Origin: Chryseolinea sp. H1M3-3
Lineage (GTDB): Bacteria > Bacteroidota > Bacteroidia > Cytophagales > Cyclobacteriaceae
Length of the DNA stretch: 64,000 nt
Direction: 5' to 3'
NCBI RefSeq assembly: GCF_029360725.1
Contig: NZ_JARKMY010000002.1
Coordinates: 1,250,730-1,314,729, forward strand
Part shown: piece by piece, positions 53,713 to 62,409 of the stretch
How the letters are laid out: each line of letters opens with the position of its first letter
Numbering within the stretch: the first letter of the stretch is position 1
The notes under the pieces: generated by a model
Database searches by the model: none
The model's input: only the letters and a program-made list of their open reading frames with translations
What the model was told of the DNA's origin: nothing
Program-made: the position numbers and the translations under genes

Positions 53713-53883
53713 AACTGATAATTTTTTAGGTGAGAGATTATTTTATTACTCCACTATAACACGGGGGCAAGGGTAGTGTTTATTTCTGGGCAAATAAAAA
53801 TTTAAAAAAAGCGGGCTATCGCCTATTTCTGGCACTGCTATTGAGAGGCCCGTTTTTATAAACGAAGGCTAACGTCGGACGAG

Positions 53884-54462
53884 TTACAAAATTTCGTAGC
53901 CGATAGGCTTGTAGCTAAAGTTATTAGACATCCCTGCTGAACAGGCGGTCATACCCACTATAAGATCCATTTTTGCTTCAAGCGTTATGGAGTCGCCTGC
54001 TTTACTCTTCGGCGGCAGAACAGATAGTTTACCAGTTTCTCCGTTAACATCTACATGCATAAAGATATTGAAGCACGTTGGAATGGTGTCGCCTGAAATG
54101 CCATATTCTGCAAGGGCACCTTTAAGATTACCAAAACATCCATGATGAGGATCTGTGTGCCCATAAGTAATTCGAAACATTTCTGCACTGCAAGGCGCTA
54201 AAAGAAAATCATGCCTGCCCACCGTGTCTTCGATAATTTGAAACATTTCATTGCTCCTGTTGGAATAAAATACATGCCCCTTTGTTAAAAATAGCGTCTC
54301 GGCATAGTCCAGTGTACGACCTGACGAGAGGTATTCTGTTCTGTCTTGCAGGTTATAACATATAAAGTCAGAAACCTGCTCACCCTGAACGTCGTAAACT
54401 TGGAGCTTGTCACCTTTCTTTAACGTAAAGGCTACACCTGACCGTGGTGGAATGATGTTCAT
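53884..54462 (-). CDS. DUF1989 (urea-carboxylase-associated) family protein
   Basis: 192 residues from the ATG at 54462, which follows the previous stop by one base (TAA-T-ATG); the longer open frame starting at 54579 overlaps the upstream gene in another frame and is discarded. Signature stretches: MNIIPPRSGVAFTLKKGDKLQVYDVQGEQVSDF at the N-terminus, LLAPCSAEMFRITYG with HTDPHHGCFGNL, and TCFNIFMHV with LPPKSKAGD. DUF1989 is linked to urea and guanidine metabolism by genome context, and Cys/His residues are typical of a metal site. Third gene of an overlapping operon with YqcI/YcgG and ATP-grasp. Confidence 0.85.
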   Translation of the reverse strand: MNIIPPRSGVAFTLKKGDKLQVYDVQGEQVSDFICYNLQDRTEYLSSGRTLDYAETLFLTKGHVFYSNRSNEMFQIIEDTVGRHDFLLAPCSAEMFRITYGHTDPHHGCFGNLKGALAEYGISGDTIPTCFNIFMHVDVNGETGKLSVLPPKSKAGDSITLEAKMDLIVGMTACSAGMSNNFSYKPIGYEIL

Positions 54463-54463
54463 A

Positions 54464-55117
54464 TTACTTGAATAAAGGACAGCGCCAATCGGTGGGATAC
54501 TTTCTGCCACTGTATTGATAAACCTCCGATGCTTCGTTAAAATCTTTAAGCATCGGGTTGACAGATCCGGAATAAACAATATCTCGTTGGCGAACCACGT
54601 CTCTCATTTTTTGGAATTTGTTCGACGCTCTGAGTTTTTCAAATTCAGCATGAGGATTAAAAACCAACGTTGGATAAGTAAATTGTCGTGCCTTTCTGCT
54701 GCTTGAAGCATGAAGTCCAACGATAAAGAAGGCCTCTGCTTTCAAACTGAAACTATAACTGGTTGACAGAGGATCTGAAGCTACCCGTGGATCGTGTTGA
54801 AAATATTTCTTGTCCAAAGCTGAGAGGGCGCTCAATCGCTGCCACAGCAATTCATCAAAATCATTTTCAGATATGTGAAGCGGTTCTTTAAAAATTACGG
54901 CAGCGCTATAGTACATGTCATTTGATGACCGGTATCCATCTACAAAGTCATAAATGAATTGCAAAATATCAGTGTCCTGTCCAGGACTTTTCATATCGGA
55001 TACCACCATACACTTAATATGATTTCTGGCAAGCGCTGCCTTGGCGCCAACGCATGGAAAGCTCTTTTCACCCAGAAATTCCCTGTACTTCTTTTCGATC
55101 AACACTTCTGATTTCAT
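54464..55117 (-). CDS. YqcI/YcgG-family protein (GntA-like haem-dependent N-hydroxylase family)
   Basis: 217 residues. The family motif FPCVGAKAAL (about 20-29) and the DPLSTSYSF-like and TYPTLVFNPHAEFEKLR stretches identify the YqcI/YcgG family. Members include GntA, the haem-dependent enzyme that N-hydroxylates a cyclic guanidine in guanitoxin biosynthesis, and relatives of the DcsA arginine N-hydroxylase. An N-hydroxylation of a guanidine or amine is therefore the likely reaction; the substrate is unknown. Its first 50 bp overlap the end of the ATP-grasp gene, and DUF1989 follows by one base, so the three should be translated together. No other gnt genes are in the window. Confidence 0.82.
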   Translation of the reverse strand: MKSEVLIEKKYREFLGEKSFPCVGAKAALARNHIKCMVVSDMKSPGQDTDILQFIYDFVDGYRSSNDMYYSAAVIFKEPLHISENDFDELLWQRLSALSALDKKYFQHDPRVASDPLSTSYSFSLKAEAFFIVGLHASSSRKARQFTYPTLVFNPHAEFEKLRASNKFQKMRDVVRQRDIVYSGSVNPMLKDFNEASEVYQYSGRKYPTDWRCPLFK

Positions 55118-56261
55118 GACTTTCTTGCTTATTTAGGGTTAATGCATAGTGATGCACTTCGCGTTTAGTTTTCTGGTTGTCAGTTTGTATTTCGTTGAAA
55201 GACTTGAACTCTAATGCTCTCAACTTCTTGAAATGTTTTCTTGCTTTCAGCAGATGACGAACGCCTCGGAGGAAACCCCAGTACGGAACGCCTTTTTTAT
55301 TGTTTAAAACTGAAATCTGAAAGAGTATATGCCAATGTTCCAGTAAAATCTTTATTGCTTTTAAAAGGGAGTTGCCATCGCCATAAACGTGGTGTGGCTC
55401 TGCACCACTTCCATTGAATTCCAGGATCGAAAAATTCTTCCCATTTTTTAAGTCGTCAATACTTCGGCATTTGATGTCATAGCGACCGAAATAAAAATCA
55501 CCAACATGACTTAGGTTGTCGAAAAATTCAAGGAGCTTTTCATCCTTTTCGTGTTCGAGGCTAACAAGTTTTCCGCCGCGGCTTAAGTTTAGCGCATCAC
55601 ATAGAACGAAATTCTCGCCGCATGGTATAACGTGTTTTAAAGATGTCGCGTGCTTTATCTTCATTTCCTCGAGTCGGAATTGAACACGTGGATATTTCAG
55701 CATTAATTCATACAGGTTGGAAACCCCATTTCCTGTTATCGAAAGACATTCTTTTCGAACGAATCCTGTAATAGTACCTTTTACGTTGTTTGGAAACCTA
55801 TAGTAAAAGACACTTACTTCTAAGGGGTATGGAATATATTCCTGGAGAAGATAATCGACTTTCATCTTACCATGATATTCAAGGAGCTCCTGAAGGGAAT
55901 GGATCTTTCGGAACATCAGGCCCATTCGTCCCACGTCTGGCTTCACAGCCACTGGAAAATTGAAACACATTGCTTGAGCTTCAACTTCTGTGTCTGATGC
56001 AGTAGTGCAAATGTATCTTGTTCGTGGATAAGTACCCTCTGGCAGCCTTTTATACATTTCCATTTTATTTTCTCCCTCGTATCCGCCGAAAGTCAGCGTT
56101 GGATTCGCCGCCGTAAAAAACCAACAAGACCTTGCTCTAATGCAGTGTAGAATCCAGAATGGAATCATGGGAATGTACTTTATCAGCCAGGGCCAGGTTT
56201 CCCAATGTTTCAGTCTGTAAATATTTTTTTTCAGGTTTGACTGAAGGGTATTTTTTTTCAT
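55068..56261 (-). CDS. ATP-grasp-domain ligase
   Basis: 397 residues. After an N-terminal hydrophobic part (LIKYIPMIPFWILHCI) the protein reads as an ATP-grasp enzyme: MCFNFPVAVKPDVGRMGLMFRKI (nucleotide-binding strand and glycine loop), YLLQEYIPYPLEVSVFYYRF, and the Mg-binding SILEFNGSGAEPHHVYG (Glu and Asn before GxG). ATP-grasp enzymes form amide bonds by phosphorylating a carboxylate. The unusual N-terminus suggests membrane or hydrophobic-substrate association. It is the first gene of the operon and overlaps the YcgG gene by 50 bp. A product that joins an N-hydroxylated guanidine to another acid is a natural hypothesis, not shown. Confidence 0.84.
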   Translation of the reverse strand: MKKNTLQSNLKKNIYRLKHWETWPWLIKYIPMIPFWILHCIRARSCWFFTAANPTLTFGGYEGENKMEMYKRLPEGTYPRTRYICTTASDTEVEAQAMCFNFPVAVKPDVGRMGLMFRKIHSLQELLEYHGKMKVDYLLQEYIPYPLEVSVFYYRFPNNVKGTITGFVRKECLSITGNGVSNLYELMLKYPRVQFRLEEMKIKHATSLKHVIPCGENFVLCDALNLSRGGKLVSLEHEKDEKLLEFFDNLSHVGDFYFGRYDIKCRSIDDLKNGKNFSILEFNGSGAEPHHVYGDGNSLLKAIKILLEHWHILFQISVLNNKKGVPYWGFLRGVRHLLKARKHFKKLRALEFKSFNEIQTDNQKTKREVHHYALTLNKQESHEIRSVDRKEVQGISG

Positions 56262-56738
56262 AGTACAGTGTAGGCAGAACCGAGGTGCTGTGACTGGTTC
56301 TTCTTTTTAACTATCAGAATTGTTTTTTGTTCAGAAGGAAATGCTGTAAAGAATTATAAAATGCTCTAAAAGGAGATCTTAAATGACAGTCGGTATTTCA
56401 AAGGAAAATGTAATTATTGCAGGTTCTCGTACAGCCTCGCAGATGCCGGAGTAACTAAGAAAAAGGACCGTTTAAAAGTATCTTCGATCCACTAAACTTT
56501 GTTGATTCGACCTTCCACTTGCCAATTGGATTAAGAACCCAAATATTCTCCGTTTTAACGTCGGCCGCCGCATGTACAAAAGCTCAACCATAAAGCGTTT
56601 CTGCCGTTGATGTTTGCGACAATCGTTTGCAACTTAGTCTTTGTTTGAAAGCCATAAAAGATCGTTTGAATTCCATAATTTTTAATCCAAACATTCATGC
56701 AAACTTTGCATTTTAGACGGACTACCCACTACAGAGAT
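56262..56738. other. Divergent intergenic region with a possible 23-codon peptide gene
   Basis: 477 bp. It holds promoters for the ATP-grasp operon and the efflux operon. A short plus-strand open frame lies at 56383-56454. No other structure is recognised. Confidence 0.4.
56383..56454 (+). CDS. Possible 23-residue small peptide with a Shine-Dalgarno
   Basis: ATG at 56383 with AGGAG seven bases upstream (56371-56375), unusual for this genome where Shine-Dalgarno sites are rare. The frame encodes 23 residues (MTVGISKENVIIAGSRTASQ, then MPE) and stops at 56454. No Cys and no signal peptide. It lies between the ATP-grasp operon and the efflux operon. It could be a leader or regulatory peptide, or chance. 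Confidence 0.2.
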   Translation: MTVGISKENVIIAGSRTASQMPE

Positions 56739-58139
56739 ATGACTCCCAGATCCAAGCTATTATTGATTATGTTTTTTTTGTCGATGCTATCGCATCACGT
56801 CTCAGGGCAGGATGTCCTTACGATGCAGGAAGCGCTCACGCTTGGCGTTATGAACTATGGAACTATAAAGTCTAAAACTTTTCAGGTTCAAAGTTCTCAA
56901 CATGCGTTGTCGCAGGCAAAACGGGAATACCTGCCTAACATTGTTTTGTCAGCACAGCAAACTTATGGCACCATCAACGGACAGAATGGTCCGCTTTATG
57001 GTTTCGGAGGTTTTGGTGTCGGATCTTCTGGTTTGCCATTGCCGGAACAAAATTGGAATGCCGCCTTTGGTGCGTTATACCTCGCAAATATTAATTGGGA
57101 AGTGTTTACGTTTGGTAGAGCACGTGGGAGAATTCAAGTCGCGCGGGCCACGCAGGCAATAGCTGCGCGTGACCTTGAACAAGAACAGTTTCAACATCAG
57201 GTTAGAGTCGCTGCGGCATATCTCAACGTTTTGGGTACGCAACGCCTTGCGGCGGCCCAACAAAAAAATCTTGCACGTGCGGAGGTTGTTCAGCGCTCGG
57301 TCTCCGCACGTGCAAAAGGTGGATTGGTCGCAGGCGTAGACTCTGCACTTGCGAACGCAGAAGTTGCGAATGCTAGGATCGCTTTGTTACGAGCGTTGGA
57401 TTTCCAACAGGAGGAGGAGAAAAAACTTGTACTGTTGTTGGGCACGGTAGGTTCCAACACGCCATTAGACAGCAGCTTTGCTTTTATAACGCCAGCCCTG
57501 GAGCCAAAGGATACGAGCGTGATAAGTTCTCATCCGATACTTAATTTCTATCAAAGCAGGGTGCAGCAAAGCCAGGCGCAAATTAATCTTAGCAGGAAGT
57601 CTTACTTTCCCTCGCTTAGCCTTGTCGGTATTTTTCAAGCACGAGCCTCTGGCTTTGAAGCGCAGTATGTGCAGGATCAAACCGCGTTTACGCACAGTTA
57701 TGGCGATGGTATATCCCCAACCAGGGCTAACTATCTGGTAGGCATCGGGCTGACATGGAATCTGACATCTCTAATGCGCACGAATGCACAAGTGAAGTCT
57801 TTGAGTTATTTGAATATGGCGGCGCAAGCCGAACTGGAGCTCGCCTCTCAGGAAATAAATACACAAACACAGATCGCTAACGCAAAGCTTTCTAATGCGC
57901 TTCACATCCAACAAGAGGCGCCTATCCAAGTACAGTCTGCAACGGATGCCTATACGCAAAAAAGCGCGCTGTATCGAAATGGACTAACAACGCTGGTAGA
58001 CGTCACTCAAACATTATATGCACTTAACCGCGCAGAAACAGATCGTGATCTTGCTTTTATCAATGTATGGCAAGCCCTGTTATTAAAAGCCGCAGCCACT
58101 GGCGATCTTAATTTATTTACAAACGAATTGACCAGATAA
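56739..58139 (+). CDS. TolC-family outer-membrane efflux protein
   Basis: 466 residues from the ATG at 56739; an ATG at 56697 adds 14 residues and does not improve the signal peptide. A signal peptide (LLLIMFFLSMLSHHVSGQ) is followed by two OEP repeats. Each repeat has the coiled-coil segment of TolC (ALSQAKREYLPNIVLSAQ and SQAQINLSRKSYFPSLSLVG) and the equatorial helix IQQEAPIQVQSATDAYTQKSALY with LYRNGLTTLVDV-type ending. It forms the outer-membrane duct of the tripartite pump. Its stop overlaps the RND start (TAATG at 58137-58141). Confidence 0.93.
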   Translation: MTPRSKLLLIMFFLSMLSHHVSGQDVLTMQEALTLGVMNYGTIKSKTFQVQSSQHALSQAKREYLPNIVLSAQQTYGTINGQNGPLYGFGGFGVGSSGLPLPEQNWNAAFGALYLANINWEVFTFGRARGRIQVARATQAIAARDLEQEQFQHQVRVAAAYLNVLGTQRLAAAQQKNLARAEVVQRSVSARAKGGLVAGVDSALANAEVANARIALLRALDFQQEEEKKLVLLLGTVGSNTPLDSSFAFITPALEPKDTSVISSHPILNFYQSRVQQSQAQINLSRKSYFPSLSLVGIFQARASGFEAQYVQDQTAFTHSYGDGISPTRANYLVGIGLTWNLTSLMRTNAQVKSLSYLNMAAQAELELASQEINTQTQIANAKLSNALHIQQEAPIQVQSATDAYTQKSALYRNGLTTLVDVTQTLYALNRAETDRDLAFINVWQALLLKAAATGDLNLFTNELTR

Positions 58140-61100
58140 TGAATTTAATACAACTCGCATTACGCAGACCAATCTCTGTTTTAGTACTGGTAGCAGGCTT
58201 ATTCTTCTTTGGTATATTGGCTATTCGCGATATCAAAGTGGATATTCTGCCGAGAATGAATTTGCCGGTCATTTATATCGCTCACCCGTTTGGCGGATAT
58301 ACTCCCAATCAAATGGAAACTTATTTCGGTAAACAGTATAACAACATCCTGCTGTTTGCGAATGGTGTGAAAAGTATTGAGACAAGAAATATTCAGGGCC
58401 TTACCTTGATGAAACTGACGTACTATGAGGGTACGAACATGGCACAGGCTGCTGCCGAACTGAGTTCGTTGTCCAGTAGGATTCAGGCAATTTTTCCTCC
58501 TGGTTCCAATCCTCCTTTTATCATCCGGTTCGATGCATCTTCATTACCGGTAGGTCAGTTGGTCTTGAGTAGTCCGACACGCAGCAACAACGAACTACAA
58601 GATCTGGCTAACATTTATGTCCGGGCATCGTTCACATCGATACCTGGATTATTGGCACCAGCGCCATTTGGTGGTAACGTGCGTACCATTGAGATCAATG
58701 TCGACCCTGAACGACTGCGTTCGCACAATCTCACGCCCGATCAGATTGTAGAAGCTATTCGGCTGAATAACCAGACAGCGCCGTCAGGCAACGTTAGAAT
58801 AGGTGACACGAACTACATCACCCCAACGAATAATACGTTGAAAGAGATTAAAGACTTCGAAAATATTCCCCTTTTTAAAGGGGCGGTTCAGAATCTTTAC
58901 CTGCGGGATGTGGCCACGATCAACGATGGTGCCGACGTAACGGCAGGTTATGCGTTGATCAACGGGAAACGATCTGTTTATATTAGCGTTGCAAAGTCAG
59001 CAGATGCATCTACCTGGGACGTTGTAAACCAGTTGAAGGCGAACCTTCCACGCATCCAAAGCACGTTACCGGAAGATGTTAAGTTGTCGTACGAGTTCGA
59101 TCAATCGGTTTATGTAATCAATTCTGTCAAGAGTCTGATAACAGAAGGCGCAATAGGCGCCATTCTTACCGGCCTGATGGTTTTGCTTTTTCTGGGTGAC
59201 AGGAGAGCTGCGTTGATTGTTATTCTCACGATTCCCACCGCAGTAATTGCGGGCGTGCTGTTCTTGAAATTATTTGGGCAGACAATCAACATTATGTCCC
59301 TCAGCGGACTTGCCCTGGCCATCGGTATACTCGTTGACGAAAGCACGGTAACCATCGAAAATATTCACCAGCATTTCGCGATGGGGAAACCTAAGGCTGT
59401 CGCCATTTGGGATGCATGTCGTGAAATTGCACTGCCTAAATTACTGATCCTGTTCTGTATCCTGGCTGTATTTGCTCCTGCGTTTACGATGGTTGGAATA
59501 CCTGGCGCTTTATTCTTGCCACTTGCACTCGCCATTGGGTCTTCAATGGTTGTATCATTCCTGCTATCGCAGACCTTCGTTCCAGTAATGGCCAACTGGT
59601 TAATGAAACCGCATGAAGGCCATGCACATATTAGTGATGGTAAACGCAGTACGAACTTATCCCGGTTTGACAAATTCAAAAACAGGATAGTGAATTTTGT
59701 TGATCGGTTGTCCCCTTCGAGGAGGGTTATAGGAATCGCATATTTAATTGTTGTCACGGCGCTGGCGGTATTGTTCATTGAAAACATTGGAAGAGATGTA
59801 CTTCCACGCGTAGACTCCAGTCAATTCCAGCTGCGTCTTCGGGCGCCGAATGGAACGCGGATCGAACGTACCGAAGAGAAAGTGCACACAGTTCTAAAGG
59901 AAATTGAAACCATGGTTGGGAAAGAACGCGTTGCCATCAGTTCTGTTTATGTGGGGCAGCATCCGGCTTTATTTTCGATCAGCCCAATCTACCTTTTTAC
60001 AGCAGGTCCCCATGAAGCCGTATTTCAAGTAAGTCTAAAAAATTATGATGGCGATATGGATGATTTCAAAGACCAGGTGCGTGATCGGGTTCGGGAGTTA
60101 ATGCCAGACGTGAAGCTGTCATTCGAACCGATTGAACTGACAGAAAAAGTGTTAAGCCAAGGTTCCCCAACGCCAATAGAAGTGAGGGTTGTTGGAAAAA
60201 ACAAACAGATCAATGAAACGTATGCAAAGAAGTTGGTGGAAAACCTATCAAATATTAACTACTTCCGTGATGTACAGATTGCCCAACCGTTGGAATATCC
60301 CGCGTTAAACATAGACATTGATCGTACGCGTGCCGCGCAGTTGGGTATTGACATGAATGACATTTCACGGTCGCTGATTGCTGCGACTTCATCGTCGCGT
60401 TACACAGAGAAAAATGTTTGGGTTGACGAGAAGGGCGGCTTTTCTTACAGTGTTCAGGTACAGGTACCGTTGAACCAAATGAAAAGTCAAGAGGACATCA
60501 ACGCTATTCCTTTGCTTAGGAATGCGAACCGCCCCGTACTTGGCGACGTAGCGACCATTACGCCCGGGGTTACCTATGGTGAAAATGATAACCTGGGTGC
60601 AATTTCGTTTCTTTCGGTGACAGCTAACGTGTACCAAACGGATTTGGGATCGGCTCAAAAGGATGTACAGTACGCTATCGAATCCCTGGGAGAATTGCCC
60701 AGAGGATTATTTATTGAATCGATCGGCTTGGGTAAAGTTTTAAACGAAACATTGTCAAGCCTTCAGGGAGGATTATTGGTAGCCGTGGTGGTTATTTTCC
60801 TGATGCTTGCTGCAAATTTCCAGTCGTTTCAAGTTTCATTTATTGTGCTTACGTCTGTCCCTGCCGTTGTACTGGGTGCGTTGTTGTTGCTTTTGCTTAC
60901 GGGATCAACTTTAAATCTTCAATCGTACATGGGCATCATCATGTCTGTGGGCGTATCCATCGCCAACGCTGTATTATTGATTACCAACGCAGAACAGATA
61001 CGGAAACGCACAGGTGATGCTGTGTCGGCAGCGAAGGAGGCCGTAAGTTTGCGTTTGCGCCCAATAATCATGACCAGCGTGGCTATGATTGCCGGTATGT

Positions 61101-61303
61101 TGCCGATGGCGATTGGACATGGTGAGGGGGCCGAACAAGTTGCGCCCTTAGGACGTGCAGTCATAGGAGGCTTGTTGTTTTCAACCGTAGCAGTACTGAT
61201 TGTCCTACCCTTAATTTTTTCCTGGATTCAAAACAAGGCAAGTATTGCTTCTGTGTCGCTCGATCCAACCGATCATGAAAGTAAATTTTATACTCCGAAC
61301 TAA
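58139..61303 (+). CDS. RND efflux pump inner-membrane transporter (AcrB/HAE-type)
   Basis: 1054 residues, normal for AcrB/CusA-type permeases. Twelve TM helices in two repeats are separated by large periplasmic loops. Helix 4 carries the proton-relay motif LALAIGILVDESTVTIENIHQ (Asp followed by Glu, where AcrB has DD), and LPRMNLPVIYIAHPFGG starts the first porter domain. It is coupled to TolC by a one-base overlap and followed 5 bp later by the adaptor gene. The substrate could be a hydrophobic or cationic toxin or metal; no metal-binding Met cluster of CusA type is evident. Confidence 0.95.
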   Translation: MNLIQLALRRPISVLVLVAGLFFFGILAIRDIKVDILPRMNLPVIYIAHPFGGYTPNQMETYFGKQYNNILLFANGVKSIETRNIQGLTLMKLTYYEGTNMAQAAAELSSLSSRIQAIFPPGSNPPFIIRFDASSLPVGQLVLSSPTRSNNELQDLANIYVRASFTSIPGLLAPAPFGGNVRTIEINVDPERLRSHNLTPDQIVEAIRLNNQTAPSGNVRIGDTNYITPTNNTLKEIKDFENIPLFKGAVQNLYLRDVATINDGADVTAGYALINGKRSVYISVAKSADASTWDVVNQLKANLPRIQSTLPEDVKLSYEFDQSVYVINSVKSLITEGAIGAILTGLMVLLFLGDRRAALIVILTIPTAVIAGVLFLKLFGQTINIMSLSGLALAIGILVDESTVTIENIHQHFAMGKPKAVAIWDACREIALPKLLILFCILAVFAPAFTMVGIPGALFLPLALAIGSSMVVSFLLSQTFVPVMANWLMKPHEGHAHISDGKRSTNLSRFDKFKNRIVNFVDRLSPSRRVIGIAYLIVVTALAVLFIENIGRDVLPRVDSSQFQLRLRAPNGTRIERTEEKVHTVLKEIETMVGKERVAISSVYVGQHPALFSISPIYLFTAGPHEAVFQVSLKNYDGDMDDFKDQVRDRVRELMPDVKLSFEPIELTEKVLSQGSPTPIEVRVVGKNKQINETYAKKLVENLSNINYFRDVQIAQPLEYPALNIDIDRTRAAQLGIDMNDISRSLIAATSSSRYTEKNVWVDEKGGFSYSVQVQVPLNQMKSQEDINAIPLLRNANRPVLGDVATITPGVTYGENDNLGAISFLSVTANVYQTDLGSAQKDVQYAIESLGELPRGLFIESIGLGKVLNETLSSLQGGLLVAVVVIFLMLAANFQSFQVSFIVLTSVPAVVLGALLLLLLTGSTLNLQSYMGIIMSVGVSIANAVLLITNAEQIRKRTGDAVSAAKEAVSLRLRPIIMTSVAMIAGMLPMAIGHGEGAEQVAPLGRAVIGGLLFSTVAVLIVLPLIFSWIQNKASIASVSLDPTDHESKFYTPN

Positions 61304-61308
61304 TTGAT

Positions 61309-62409
61309 ATGTTAAAAATTGTAAGCCCATCTTTATTTTTTATTATGCTGTTGAGCATTGTCACCAGCAGCTGCAATAATTCTCCGGCGACGGATGAATC
61401 AAAATCTGATACCAAGCCCGCGGACGCTGCCTCAGAAAAGATCATACTGAAAAAAGACACATTAGAAACTACCTTGACGATTCCCGGCGAGCTTATGGCA
61501 TACCAACAGGTTGACCTTTATGCTAAGGTGACAGGATTTGTGAAGGAATTGAAAGTTGATATCGGCTCAAAAGTAAAGATGGGCCAGGTGTTGATTACCT
61601 TAGAGGCACCGGAGATGATGTCACAACTTTCGGCAGCACAATCAAGACTGAAATCTCAGGAGGCATTGTTTACCGCAAGTCAGGCTAATTATAACCGCCT
61701 TGTAGAAACCAGCAAGACACCGGGAACGATCTCACAAAATGATCTTGAACAAGCAGAGGCGAAGAAAAGCGCCGACTATGCTAACCTTGAGGCTGCACGC
61801 GCCAGTTTCAGAGAAGTCACGGATATTAAAAACTACCTGGTCATTCGGGCACCCTTTGACGGAACAATCACCGCGCGAAATGTAAATGTAGGGGCGTATG
61901 TTGGGCCTAGCGGCAAAGGATCTGAGCTCCCGGCGCTTACACTTCAGCAGCAGGCCAAACTCCGATTGGTCATCTCGATTCCGGAAAGTTATTCTGGTTA
62001 TTTCAAGCAAGGTGATGAGGTGGCATTCAAAGTGCGATCGATGCCCTCGGAAAATTTCAAAGCGAAGTTGACAAGGCTTTCAGGTGCCCTTGACCTTCGG
62101 CTTCGTTCTCAACGGGCGGAAGCAGATATTGAAAACAGCGATGGTAAGCTGCTGGCTGGTACGGTGGCGGATGTTAGTACAACGCTTCATTCTTCCAGCA
62201 ATTCCTTCATCGTTCCTAAAAGCACGGTTGTAAATGCAGCAGAAGGCGTCTACGTGATAAAAATTGTAAATGGAAAAGCTGCATACGTTCCAGTGAAAAA
62301 AGGATTGGAAGCAAATGGGATGGTGGAAGTATTTGGTGCGTTAGCTGAAAACGACACGTTGTTAAAAAAAGGGAGCGACGAGATAAAGGCAGGGCAGGAG
62401 GTAAGATAA
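61309..62409 (+). CDS. RND efflux membrane-fusion (adaptor) lipoprotein
   Basis: 366 residues. Lipobox SSC (Cys22). Order: barrel-sandwich/lipoyl half (about 60-90, VDLYAKVTGFVKELKVDIGSKVKMGQVLITLE), alpha-helical hairpin (about 95-160), returning lipoyl half (about 165-190, YLVIRAPFDGTITARNVNVGAYVG), beta-barrel domain (about 200-280) and membrane-proximal domain. It connects the RND pump to the TolC duct. The gene order TolC-RND-MFP is the reverse of the acrAB-tolC order but common in Bacteroidota. Confidence 0.93.
   Translation: MLKIVSPSLFFIMLLSIVTSSCNNSPATDESKSDTKPADAASEKIILKKDTLETTLTIPGELMAYQQVDLYAKVTGFVKELKVDIGSKVKMGQVLITLEAPEMMSQLSAAQSRLKSQEALFTASQANYNRLVETSKTPGTISQNDLEQAEAKKSADYANLEAARASFREVTDIKNYLVIRAPFDGTITARNVNVGAYVGPSGKGSELPALTLQQQAKLRLVISIPESYSGYFKQGDEVAFKVRSMPSENFKAKLTRLSGALDLRLRSQRAEADIENSDGKLLAGTVADVSTTLHSSSNSFIVPKSTVVNAAEGVYVIKIVNGKAAYVPVKKGLEANGMVEVFGALAENDTLLKKGSDEIKAGQEVR

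Follow-up and report, generated by a model that had tools for sequence, protein, structure and literature searches.

YqcI/YcgG proteins (YcgG below) are a recently recognised thiolate-heme class, known from a handful of natural-product pathways. The available part of PMC12866846 describes the characterised members as hydroxylating guanidines; for AglA, it has R166 contacting a heme propionate and R179 the backbone of the substrate, and Q177 keeping in place a water molecule by which the guanidine is positioned. An absolutely conserved cysteine had already been noted in 2010 and was read as a peptide anchor in the accessible text (PMC2922099). In the argolaphos pathway, the ATP-grasp protein AlpC is listed next to the YcgG protein AlpD in the available part of PMC8976061. 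The characterised enzymes of a second family, DUF1989, deiminate carboxyguanidine or demethylate an N-oxide according to the accessible sections of their reports, which also describe the relative Tdm as binding Zn and Fe. Here, we analysed a stretch of 64,000 nucleotides from Chryseolinea sp. H1M3-3 (contig NZ_JARKMY010000002.1, positions 1,250,730 to 1,314,729), called the window, in which genes for an ATP-grasp protein, a YcgG protein and a DUF1989 protein lie together.

A sequence-only reading of the window had proposed that these three products N-hydroxylate a guanidino or amino compound and ligate it through an amide bond. As a whole, this interpretation is partly supported. The novelty lies in the pair of YcgG and DUF1989, not in the trio. 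We tentatively read the pair as a two-enzyme guanidine-oxidation module to which a ligase is added in some lineages, and give this reading somewhat less than an even chance. No description of the pair was found in the open-licence literature, where no search joined both names directly.

YcgG and DUF1989 form the conserved unit

The conserved unit is the pair of YcgG and DUF1989. The expectation that the genes are kept together elsewhere held for these two, which are adjacent in 78 of 80 named loci. An ATP-grasp gene lies directly upstream of the pair in 15 of the 80 and in the window. The named loci are the best 80 of 560 relatives from a genome scan, those closest to the window and not a fair sample of the family. 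They are labelled as 43 Bacteroidota, 36 Pseudomonadota (Methylobacterium and kin, Legionella, Alteromonas, Parvularcula and others) and one metagenome-assembled genome (MAG) titled Rickettsiaceae. Of the two exceptions, the genome of L088 has another YcgG beside its DUF1989, and that of L081 has a 61% DUF1989 match with no YcgG within 1.5 kb. YcgG comes first in 68 of the 75 unfused adjacent pairs and DUF1989 in 7. Three loci, all from Legionella, encode both as a single polypeptide of 414, 430 or 421 residues without a stop, and the one scanned (L062) contains both Pfam domains. With no correction for species phylogeny, the pairwise identities of YcgG and those of DUF1989 correlate at 0.80 in an alignment of 79 rows.

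YcgG is patchy and was found in 9 of 395 Bacteroidota genomes and in 5 of 59 relatives. DUF1989 was found in 10 of the 395, the same nine and G210, whose copies are distant (28-29% identity), and in 6 of the 59, the same five and G020 at 37% identity. With the window genome counted in both sets, Fisher's test for co-occurrence gave 1.7e-17 for the 395 genomes (2.2e-10 on genus counts) and 1.2e-6 for the 59 relatives. All 7 matches of a PF08892 search in 296 Bacteroidota genomes carry the pair, and each of the 13 distinct genomes, that of the window among them, has YcgG and DUF1989 next to each other. The arrangement of YcgG and DUF1989 exceeds chance. On plasmids, 14 DUF1989 matches of at least 50% identity, among the matches listed (40 of 445), all lie beside YcgG. 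Correspondingly, 14 of 23 plasmid YcgG matches are paired with DUF1989, at identities of 33.2-55.6%. One of the paired plasmids is from Deinococcus ficus, and the pair is distributed over Bacteroidota, Pseudomonadota and this one Deinococcus plasmid.

In the DUF1989 tree, the YcgG-linked sequences cluster together (42 rows, support 91/96). This cluster holds three rows that were not labelled as linked, from the two exception genomes and a 'phage' scaffold, and the scaffold proves to carry YcgG too. A separate UAAP-type branch (100/97) contains six rows, of which two are annotated as UAAP1/2 and two are one gene twice, with long branches flagged; the window DUF1989 stands outside this CgdA/CgdB branch. 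DUF1989 is the constant partner of one large YcgG branch, and most of these pairs share no biosynthetic neighbour.

In G034, one DUF1989 gene lies on each side of YcgG. In L009 (8543-10746), YcgG lies between two DUF1989 genes that differ from each other; the products of both have the three cysteines and perhaps form a heteromer like CgdAB. In the MAG titled Rickettsiaceae (L053), YcgG is found at the base of the Bacteroidota group and DUF1989 at the base of the linked cluster, a placement that would reflect transfer or mis-binning. The unverified 'Bacteriophage sp.' faecal scaffold MT836826.1 (L186:4252-5555) carries the pair and is probably a bacterial contig or a mobile copy. Bacillus subtilis matches both families in our control searches; its ycgF-ycgG-ycgH-ycgI genes would encode LysE, YcgG, a permease and DUF1989, in this order.

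Conserved residues of the two proteins

The family assignments of the sequence-only reading were borne out, YcgG with 171.9 bits to Pfam PF08892 (YqcI_YcgG, gathering score 27), DUF1989 with PF09347 (Table 1) and ATP-grasp through a profile of 15 relatives. Residues were compared in an alignment of 79 rows, the window and 78 loci, from which the two loci without an adjacent DUF1989 were dropped. In YcgG, residues C22, R141, R144, F153, N154, H156, F159, D179, N187 and Q201 are invariant in all 79 rows. They include the N-terminal cysteine C22, the presumed heme ligand, in line with the predicted heme N-hydroxylase. The YcgG profile matches the AglA crystal structures (E 6e-5), and the AglA residues F152, R166, Q177, R179 and F182 align to F131, R144, N154, H156 and F159. 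Position 131 is F in 75 rows and Y in 4, whereas Q177 and R179 are replaced by N154 and H156 throughout. Judged by these residues, the oxidising core looks kept and the substrate pocket looks changed.

The window YcgG also reached 229 bits with the NCBIfam 'GntA' equivalog NF041366 (cut-off 145), as would be expected for a true guanitoxin-type pathway. The same cut-off was passed by one of the Legionella fusions (258.8 bits) and by a Methylobacterium YcgG (245.7 bits). Since all three pair members tested pass it, the model does not single out the guanitoxin pathway, and the automatic name 'GntA, guanitoxin biosynthesis' is probably over-called and misleading for members of the pair. No second gene with a gnt name was seen in the nine plasmid regions viewed around a 'gntA' gene (about 6 kb on each side, annotation incomplete), and the window genome was not scanned per gene. 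The regions viewed thus gave no sign of a guanitoxin pathway, as the sequence-only reading had it, and such a pathway is hardly credible.

In the DUF1989 protein, C91, C109, C174, D24, D32, N68, D79, H84, D85 and N132 are invariant in 79 of 79 rows. In a wider DUF1989 set, C174 is present in 41 of 42 sequences, the sole exception (L148) being a truncated fragment, and H84 loses its invariance. When compared with two UAAP2-type and two UAAP1-type reference rows, the pair DUF1989 retains the UAAP2-type metal site and residues of the UAAP2-type subunit that are absent from the UAAP1-type one, and has its own D52, G48, S70, P90 and N180. Position 52, which is D in the pair, R in UAAP2 and K in UAAP1, is not a known active-site position. 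The window protein scored 113.2 bits with the UAAP2 model (cut-off 284.7) and 97.5 bits with the UAAP1 model (cut-off 205.95), and it aligned to the structure of the trimethylamine N-oxide demethylase Tdm (9q59, E 5e-23). Other DUF1989 branches (L183:3875-4576 and L185:4959-5573) belong to gene clusters of two kinds, one with an amino-acid ABC transporter and M20 hydrolase, the other with a cytosine permease and amidase, and this makes further DUF1989 activities likely.

A metal-site protein with a Zn- and Fe-binding relative would also suit a graminine-like system, in which YcgG hydroxylates arginine and DUF1989 takes an SznF-type cupin role and rearranges the hydroxyguanidine, giving an N-N bonded or nitrosated amino acid as a metal ligand or signal. 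The YcgG protein ChmN has been proposed to work with an SznF-like partner, and GrbE/GrbD likewise, in the accessible parts of the reports. However, the DUF1989 protein matched no cupin when its sequence was searched against Pfam, NCBIfam and PDB, and the known DUF1989 chemistry is C-N cleavage, so that we find this alternative quite unlikely.

The ATP-grasp gene and other neighbours

The ligase added to the guanidine-oxidation module in some lineages would be the ATP-grasp protein. Alone, the window ATP-grasp stays below the Pfam cut-off of 27 with 13.5 bits (E 0.057). The profile of 15 relatives matches solved glutathione-synthase/RimK-type ATP-grasp ligases (best E 0.0028), and K107, E281 and N283 are invariant in 15 of 15 aligned rows. 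By motif position, we take K107 to be the ATP-binding lysine and E281 and N283 to be the Mg-binding glutamate and asparagine. The ATP-grasp call is supported by this profile match together with the three invariant residues.

Most carriers of the linked ATP-grasp belong to Chitinophagaceae or Chitinophagales; the others are Chryseolinea and a small number of further Bacteroidota MAGs. In L042 the contig begins inside the gene, and in L064 the gene lies in two pieces. It is a partial-lineage addition, found in part of the Bacteroidota only, and looks like a later addition in some lineages. The linked genes lie on the same strand as the pair, spaced from a 50-bp overlap to a 138-bp gap, with the spacings in L020 and L036 varying with start/stop choice. 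In the tree, they form one clade of 17 rows (100/99) that comprises the window, with two rows as further window copies, and 14 named loci, L064 being left out for its short pieces. The clade is nested in a larger ATP-grasp family found in 56 of 296 Bacteroidota genomes.

Alternatively, the ATP-grasp could just share a transcript with the pair as a passenger and have no part in its biochemistry. No ATP-grasp lies beside the pair in 65 of the 80 named loci, 10 of the 80 having less than 1200 bp of upstream sequence. The unlinked kin have a LysE-type gene beside them in 8 of 13 fetched neighbourhoods, the window's own genome included, and none of these neighbourhoods has the pair. On the other hand, the single supported clade directly upstream, on the same strand and closely spaced, argues for a link, and we hold a passenger to be unlikely. 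The unlinked kin beside LysE-type genes indicate that ligase and exporter probably came together before the ligase was linked to the pair. Among the pair-linked genes, ATP-grasp is fused to an N-terminal LysE translocator (PF01810) in a protein of 565 residues (L059:4222-5919), and a LysE gene precedes it in L020. No LysE gene lies beside the window copy. In viral contigs, no ATP-grasp pattern match was found (close relatives only).

Members of the wider ATP-grasp family (L135, L140, L143-L146, L147) occur with DinB-like, TANGO2/NRDE-like and LysE-type genes; L135 (DinB gene) and L144 (a TANGO2-ATP-grasp fusion) were scanned with Pfam, and the other neighbours were judged by eye. In L142 (5569-10145), a fusion of ATP-grasp with a VTT domain has OlsA- and OlsB-like acyltransferases as neighbours, an arrangement that suggests an aminolipid or dipeptide-lipid system.

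The flanking genes were surveyed in the 80 loci, 70 of them with at least 1200 bp upstream and 79 downstream. The recurrent neighbours across lineages are the ATP-grasp/LysE group (15 loci) and an amino-acid permease (L019 and L022) only. As no shared third partner was found in this survey besides ATP-grasp with a LysE domain or gene, a dedicated multi-gene cluster is not indicated in general; the chemistry proposed earlier is plausible. A gene for a pyridoxal phosphate (PLP)-dependent decarboxylase begins 3 bp after DUF1989 in L043 (7245-8972; Pfam run) and L044 (1735-3462), a nucleoside deaminase gene overlaps the DUF1989 gene end on a Sphingomonas insulae plasmid (L151:6648-7142), and L060 has a phosphorylase-superfamily gene as neighbour. 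The accessory genes are in some cases amino-acid related (LysE, permease, PLP decarboxylase) and in others not (nucleoside deaminase, phosphorylase-superfamily).

That most pairs have no shared third neighbour would also fit a catabolic or detoxifying role, where YcgG N-hydroxylates free guanidine or a small guanidino compound, hydrolysis by DUF1989 yields usable nitrogen and ATP-grasp is an accessory. DUF1989 kin are indeed found in nitrogen-use clusters, where UAAP1/2 adjoin urea carboxylase, and beside cytosine permease, amidase and polysaccharide deacetylase. However, neither the window nor 24 loci gave a guanidine riboswitch match, the annotated pair regions viewed name no carboxylase, allophanate hydrolase or urease, and the addition of an ATP-grasp and a LysE exporter is easier to reconcile with production than with uptake. 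A catabolic role is, in our view, doubtful.

The three-gene arrangement of the window is confirmed by the reading-frame coordinates (Table 1), and the operon is also present in G004, a close relative from the same genus. The conserved DUF1989 start is the ATG at 54462, one base past the YcgG stop; the longest open frame (53884-54579) begins with TTG, and its extension beyond 54462 is mechanical. The overlap of ATP-grasp and YcgG likely provides translational coupling, and in the relative L018 these frames overlap by 20 bp. Terminator-like sites were not enriched in the scan (3 found, 3.3 expected in shuffles), and the promoter scan likewise stayed at chance level. The adjacent RND efflux operon had been suggested to export the product. 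We rejected it as the pair's exporter, as G004 has no RND match in 19 kb around its operon. Among 92 clustered neighbourhoods, RND-like genes were seen in those of the window, L007, L009, L049 and L060 (5 in all), and in G031 and G034 they lie several kb off on the opposite strand. The neighbouring pump is outside the conserved unit.

Table 1. Positions of the operon and adjoining features in the window
Feature	Position	Strand	Evidence
ATP-grasp amide ligase candidate, 397 aa, first operon gene	55068..56261	minus	ORF call; K107, E281, N283; clade support 100/99
YqcI/YcgG heme-thiolate N-hydroxylase candidate, 217 aa	54464..55117	minus	PF08892 E 2.1e-50; NF041366 229 bits; C22
DUF1989 protein, 192 aa, constant YcgG partner	53884..54462	minus	PF09347 E 9.1e-57; metal-site cysteines C91, C109, C174
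50-bp overlap of the ATP-grasp and YcgG reading frames	55068..55117	minus	ORF coordinates
Terminator-like hairpin and T run, 3' of DUF1989	53809..53824	minus	Sequence scan
Divergent RND efflux operon (OEP, AcrB-type, adaptor)	56697-62409		

Proposed reaction and comparison with known systems

Co-occurrence, adjacency and fusion of the two genes, the conserved metal-site and presumed heme residues and the one clade of linked ATP-grasps were observed directly. Since known YcgG proteins hydroxylate guanidines, known DUF1989 enzymes deiminate or demethylate and the pair is constant and fusible, the pair would most simply N-hydroxylate a guanidine and then cleave or rearrange the hydroxyguanidine in a metal-dependent step. 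We infer the heme, the N-hydroxylation and the substrate class from the sequences, and the exact DUF1989 reaction and its product are a guess. YcgG would be a heme-thiolate protein with Cys22 as ligand that draws on O2 and on a redox partner from another locus, and the nitrogen it hydroxylates would belong to the guanidine group of an arginine-like compound, with arginine itself as the leading guess. The DUF1989 metalloenzyme would then act on the carbon of the hydroxylated guanidine; hydrolysis or deimination is the likeliest reaction, and it would leave a compound of the (hydroxy)urea type and set free ammonia or hydroxylamine. The Legionella fusion would fit a handover of the reactive intermediate from YcgG to DUF1989. 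In many Chitinophagaceae, Chryseolinea and a few other Bacteroidota, ATP-grasp may make an amide conjugate for export; the LysE-ATP-grasp fusion of L059, the LysE gene of L020 and the permease of L019 and L022 are counted for production and export.

Several points weigh against the guanidine-oxidation module. The AglA match covers part of the YcgG chain and is weaker with a larger alignment (E 0.025), and Cys22 is equated with AglA Cys44 by position only, outside the aligned segment. With N154 and H156 in place of the substrate residues Q177 and R179, the substrate may be other than arginine. No redox partner was seen beside the pair, and no Rfam riboswitch, guanidine riboswitches included, reached the gathering score in the window and 24 loci. 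The co-occurrence statistics are corrected for phylogeny only to genus counts. Nine of the 23 plasmid YcgG matches (21.9-36.0% identity) are outside the 14 paired ones, and no annotated DUF1989 neighbour was present in three unpaired regions viewed (Rahnella, Streptomyces, Priestia), which suggests that other YcgG branches have other partners, like the known natural-product members. For the ligase, the ATP-grasp label needs 5 changes on the YcgG tree, at least 2 of them forced by supported branches, so that it was gained, lost or transferred more than once.

A bolder proposal, to which we assign a low probability, is that YcgG-DUF1989 is a general, self-contained oxidase-hydrolase for arginine (guanidine) that works in two steps. 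Its product would be a small N-O compound able to diffuse, elaborated in some Bacteroidota into an exported amide. The compound could be hydroxylamine, hydroxyurea or a nitric-oxide precursor, with a role in signalling, defence or nitrogen metabolism across Bacteroidota and Pseudomonadota. In its logic, such an enzyme pair would presumably resemble nitric oxide synthase or DcsA-DcsB. The pairing gives two poorly understood families one joint, testable reaction.

Among the described systems, AglA/AlpD of argolaphos belongs to the same Pfam family, and its R166 and F182 correspond to the invariant R144 and F159; the pair YcgG differs by N154/H156 and by its DUF1989 partner. GntA shares the NF041366 model with the window YcgG and is set apart by the DUF1989 pairing. 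CgdA/CgdB (UAAP1/UAAP2) share the DUF1989 domain and, on the UAAP2 side, the metal site, whereas the pair DUF1989 scores far below both NCBIfam cut-offs, forms a separate cluster, has D52 and, in the regions viewed, is not beside a urea/guanidine carboxylase. Tdm (9q59) likewise shares the domain and carries a GcvT-type domain that the pair protein lacks, which is single-domain or, in Legionella, fused to YcgG. The graminine systems ChmN/ChmM and GrbE/GrbD also combine a YcgG-type N-hydroxylase with a second metalloenzyme, which is SznF/cupin-like there and DUF1989 in the pair.

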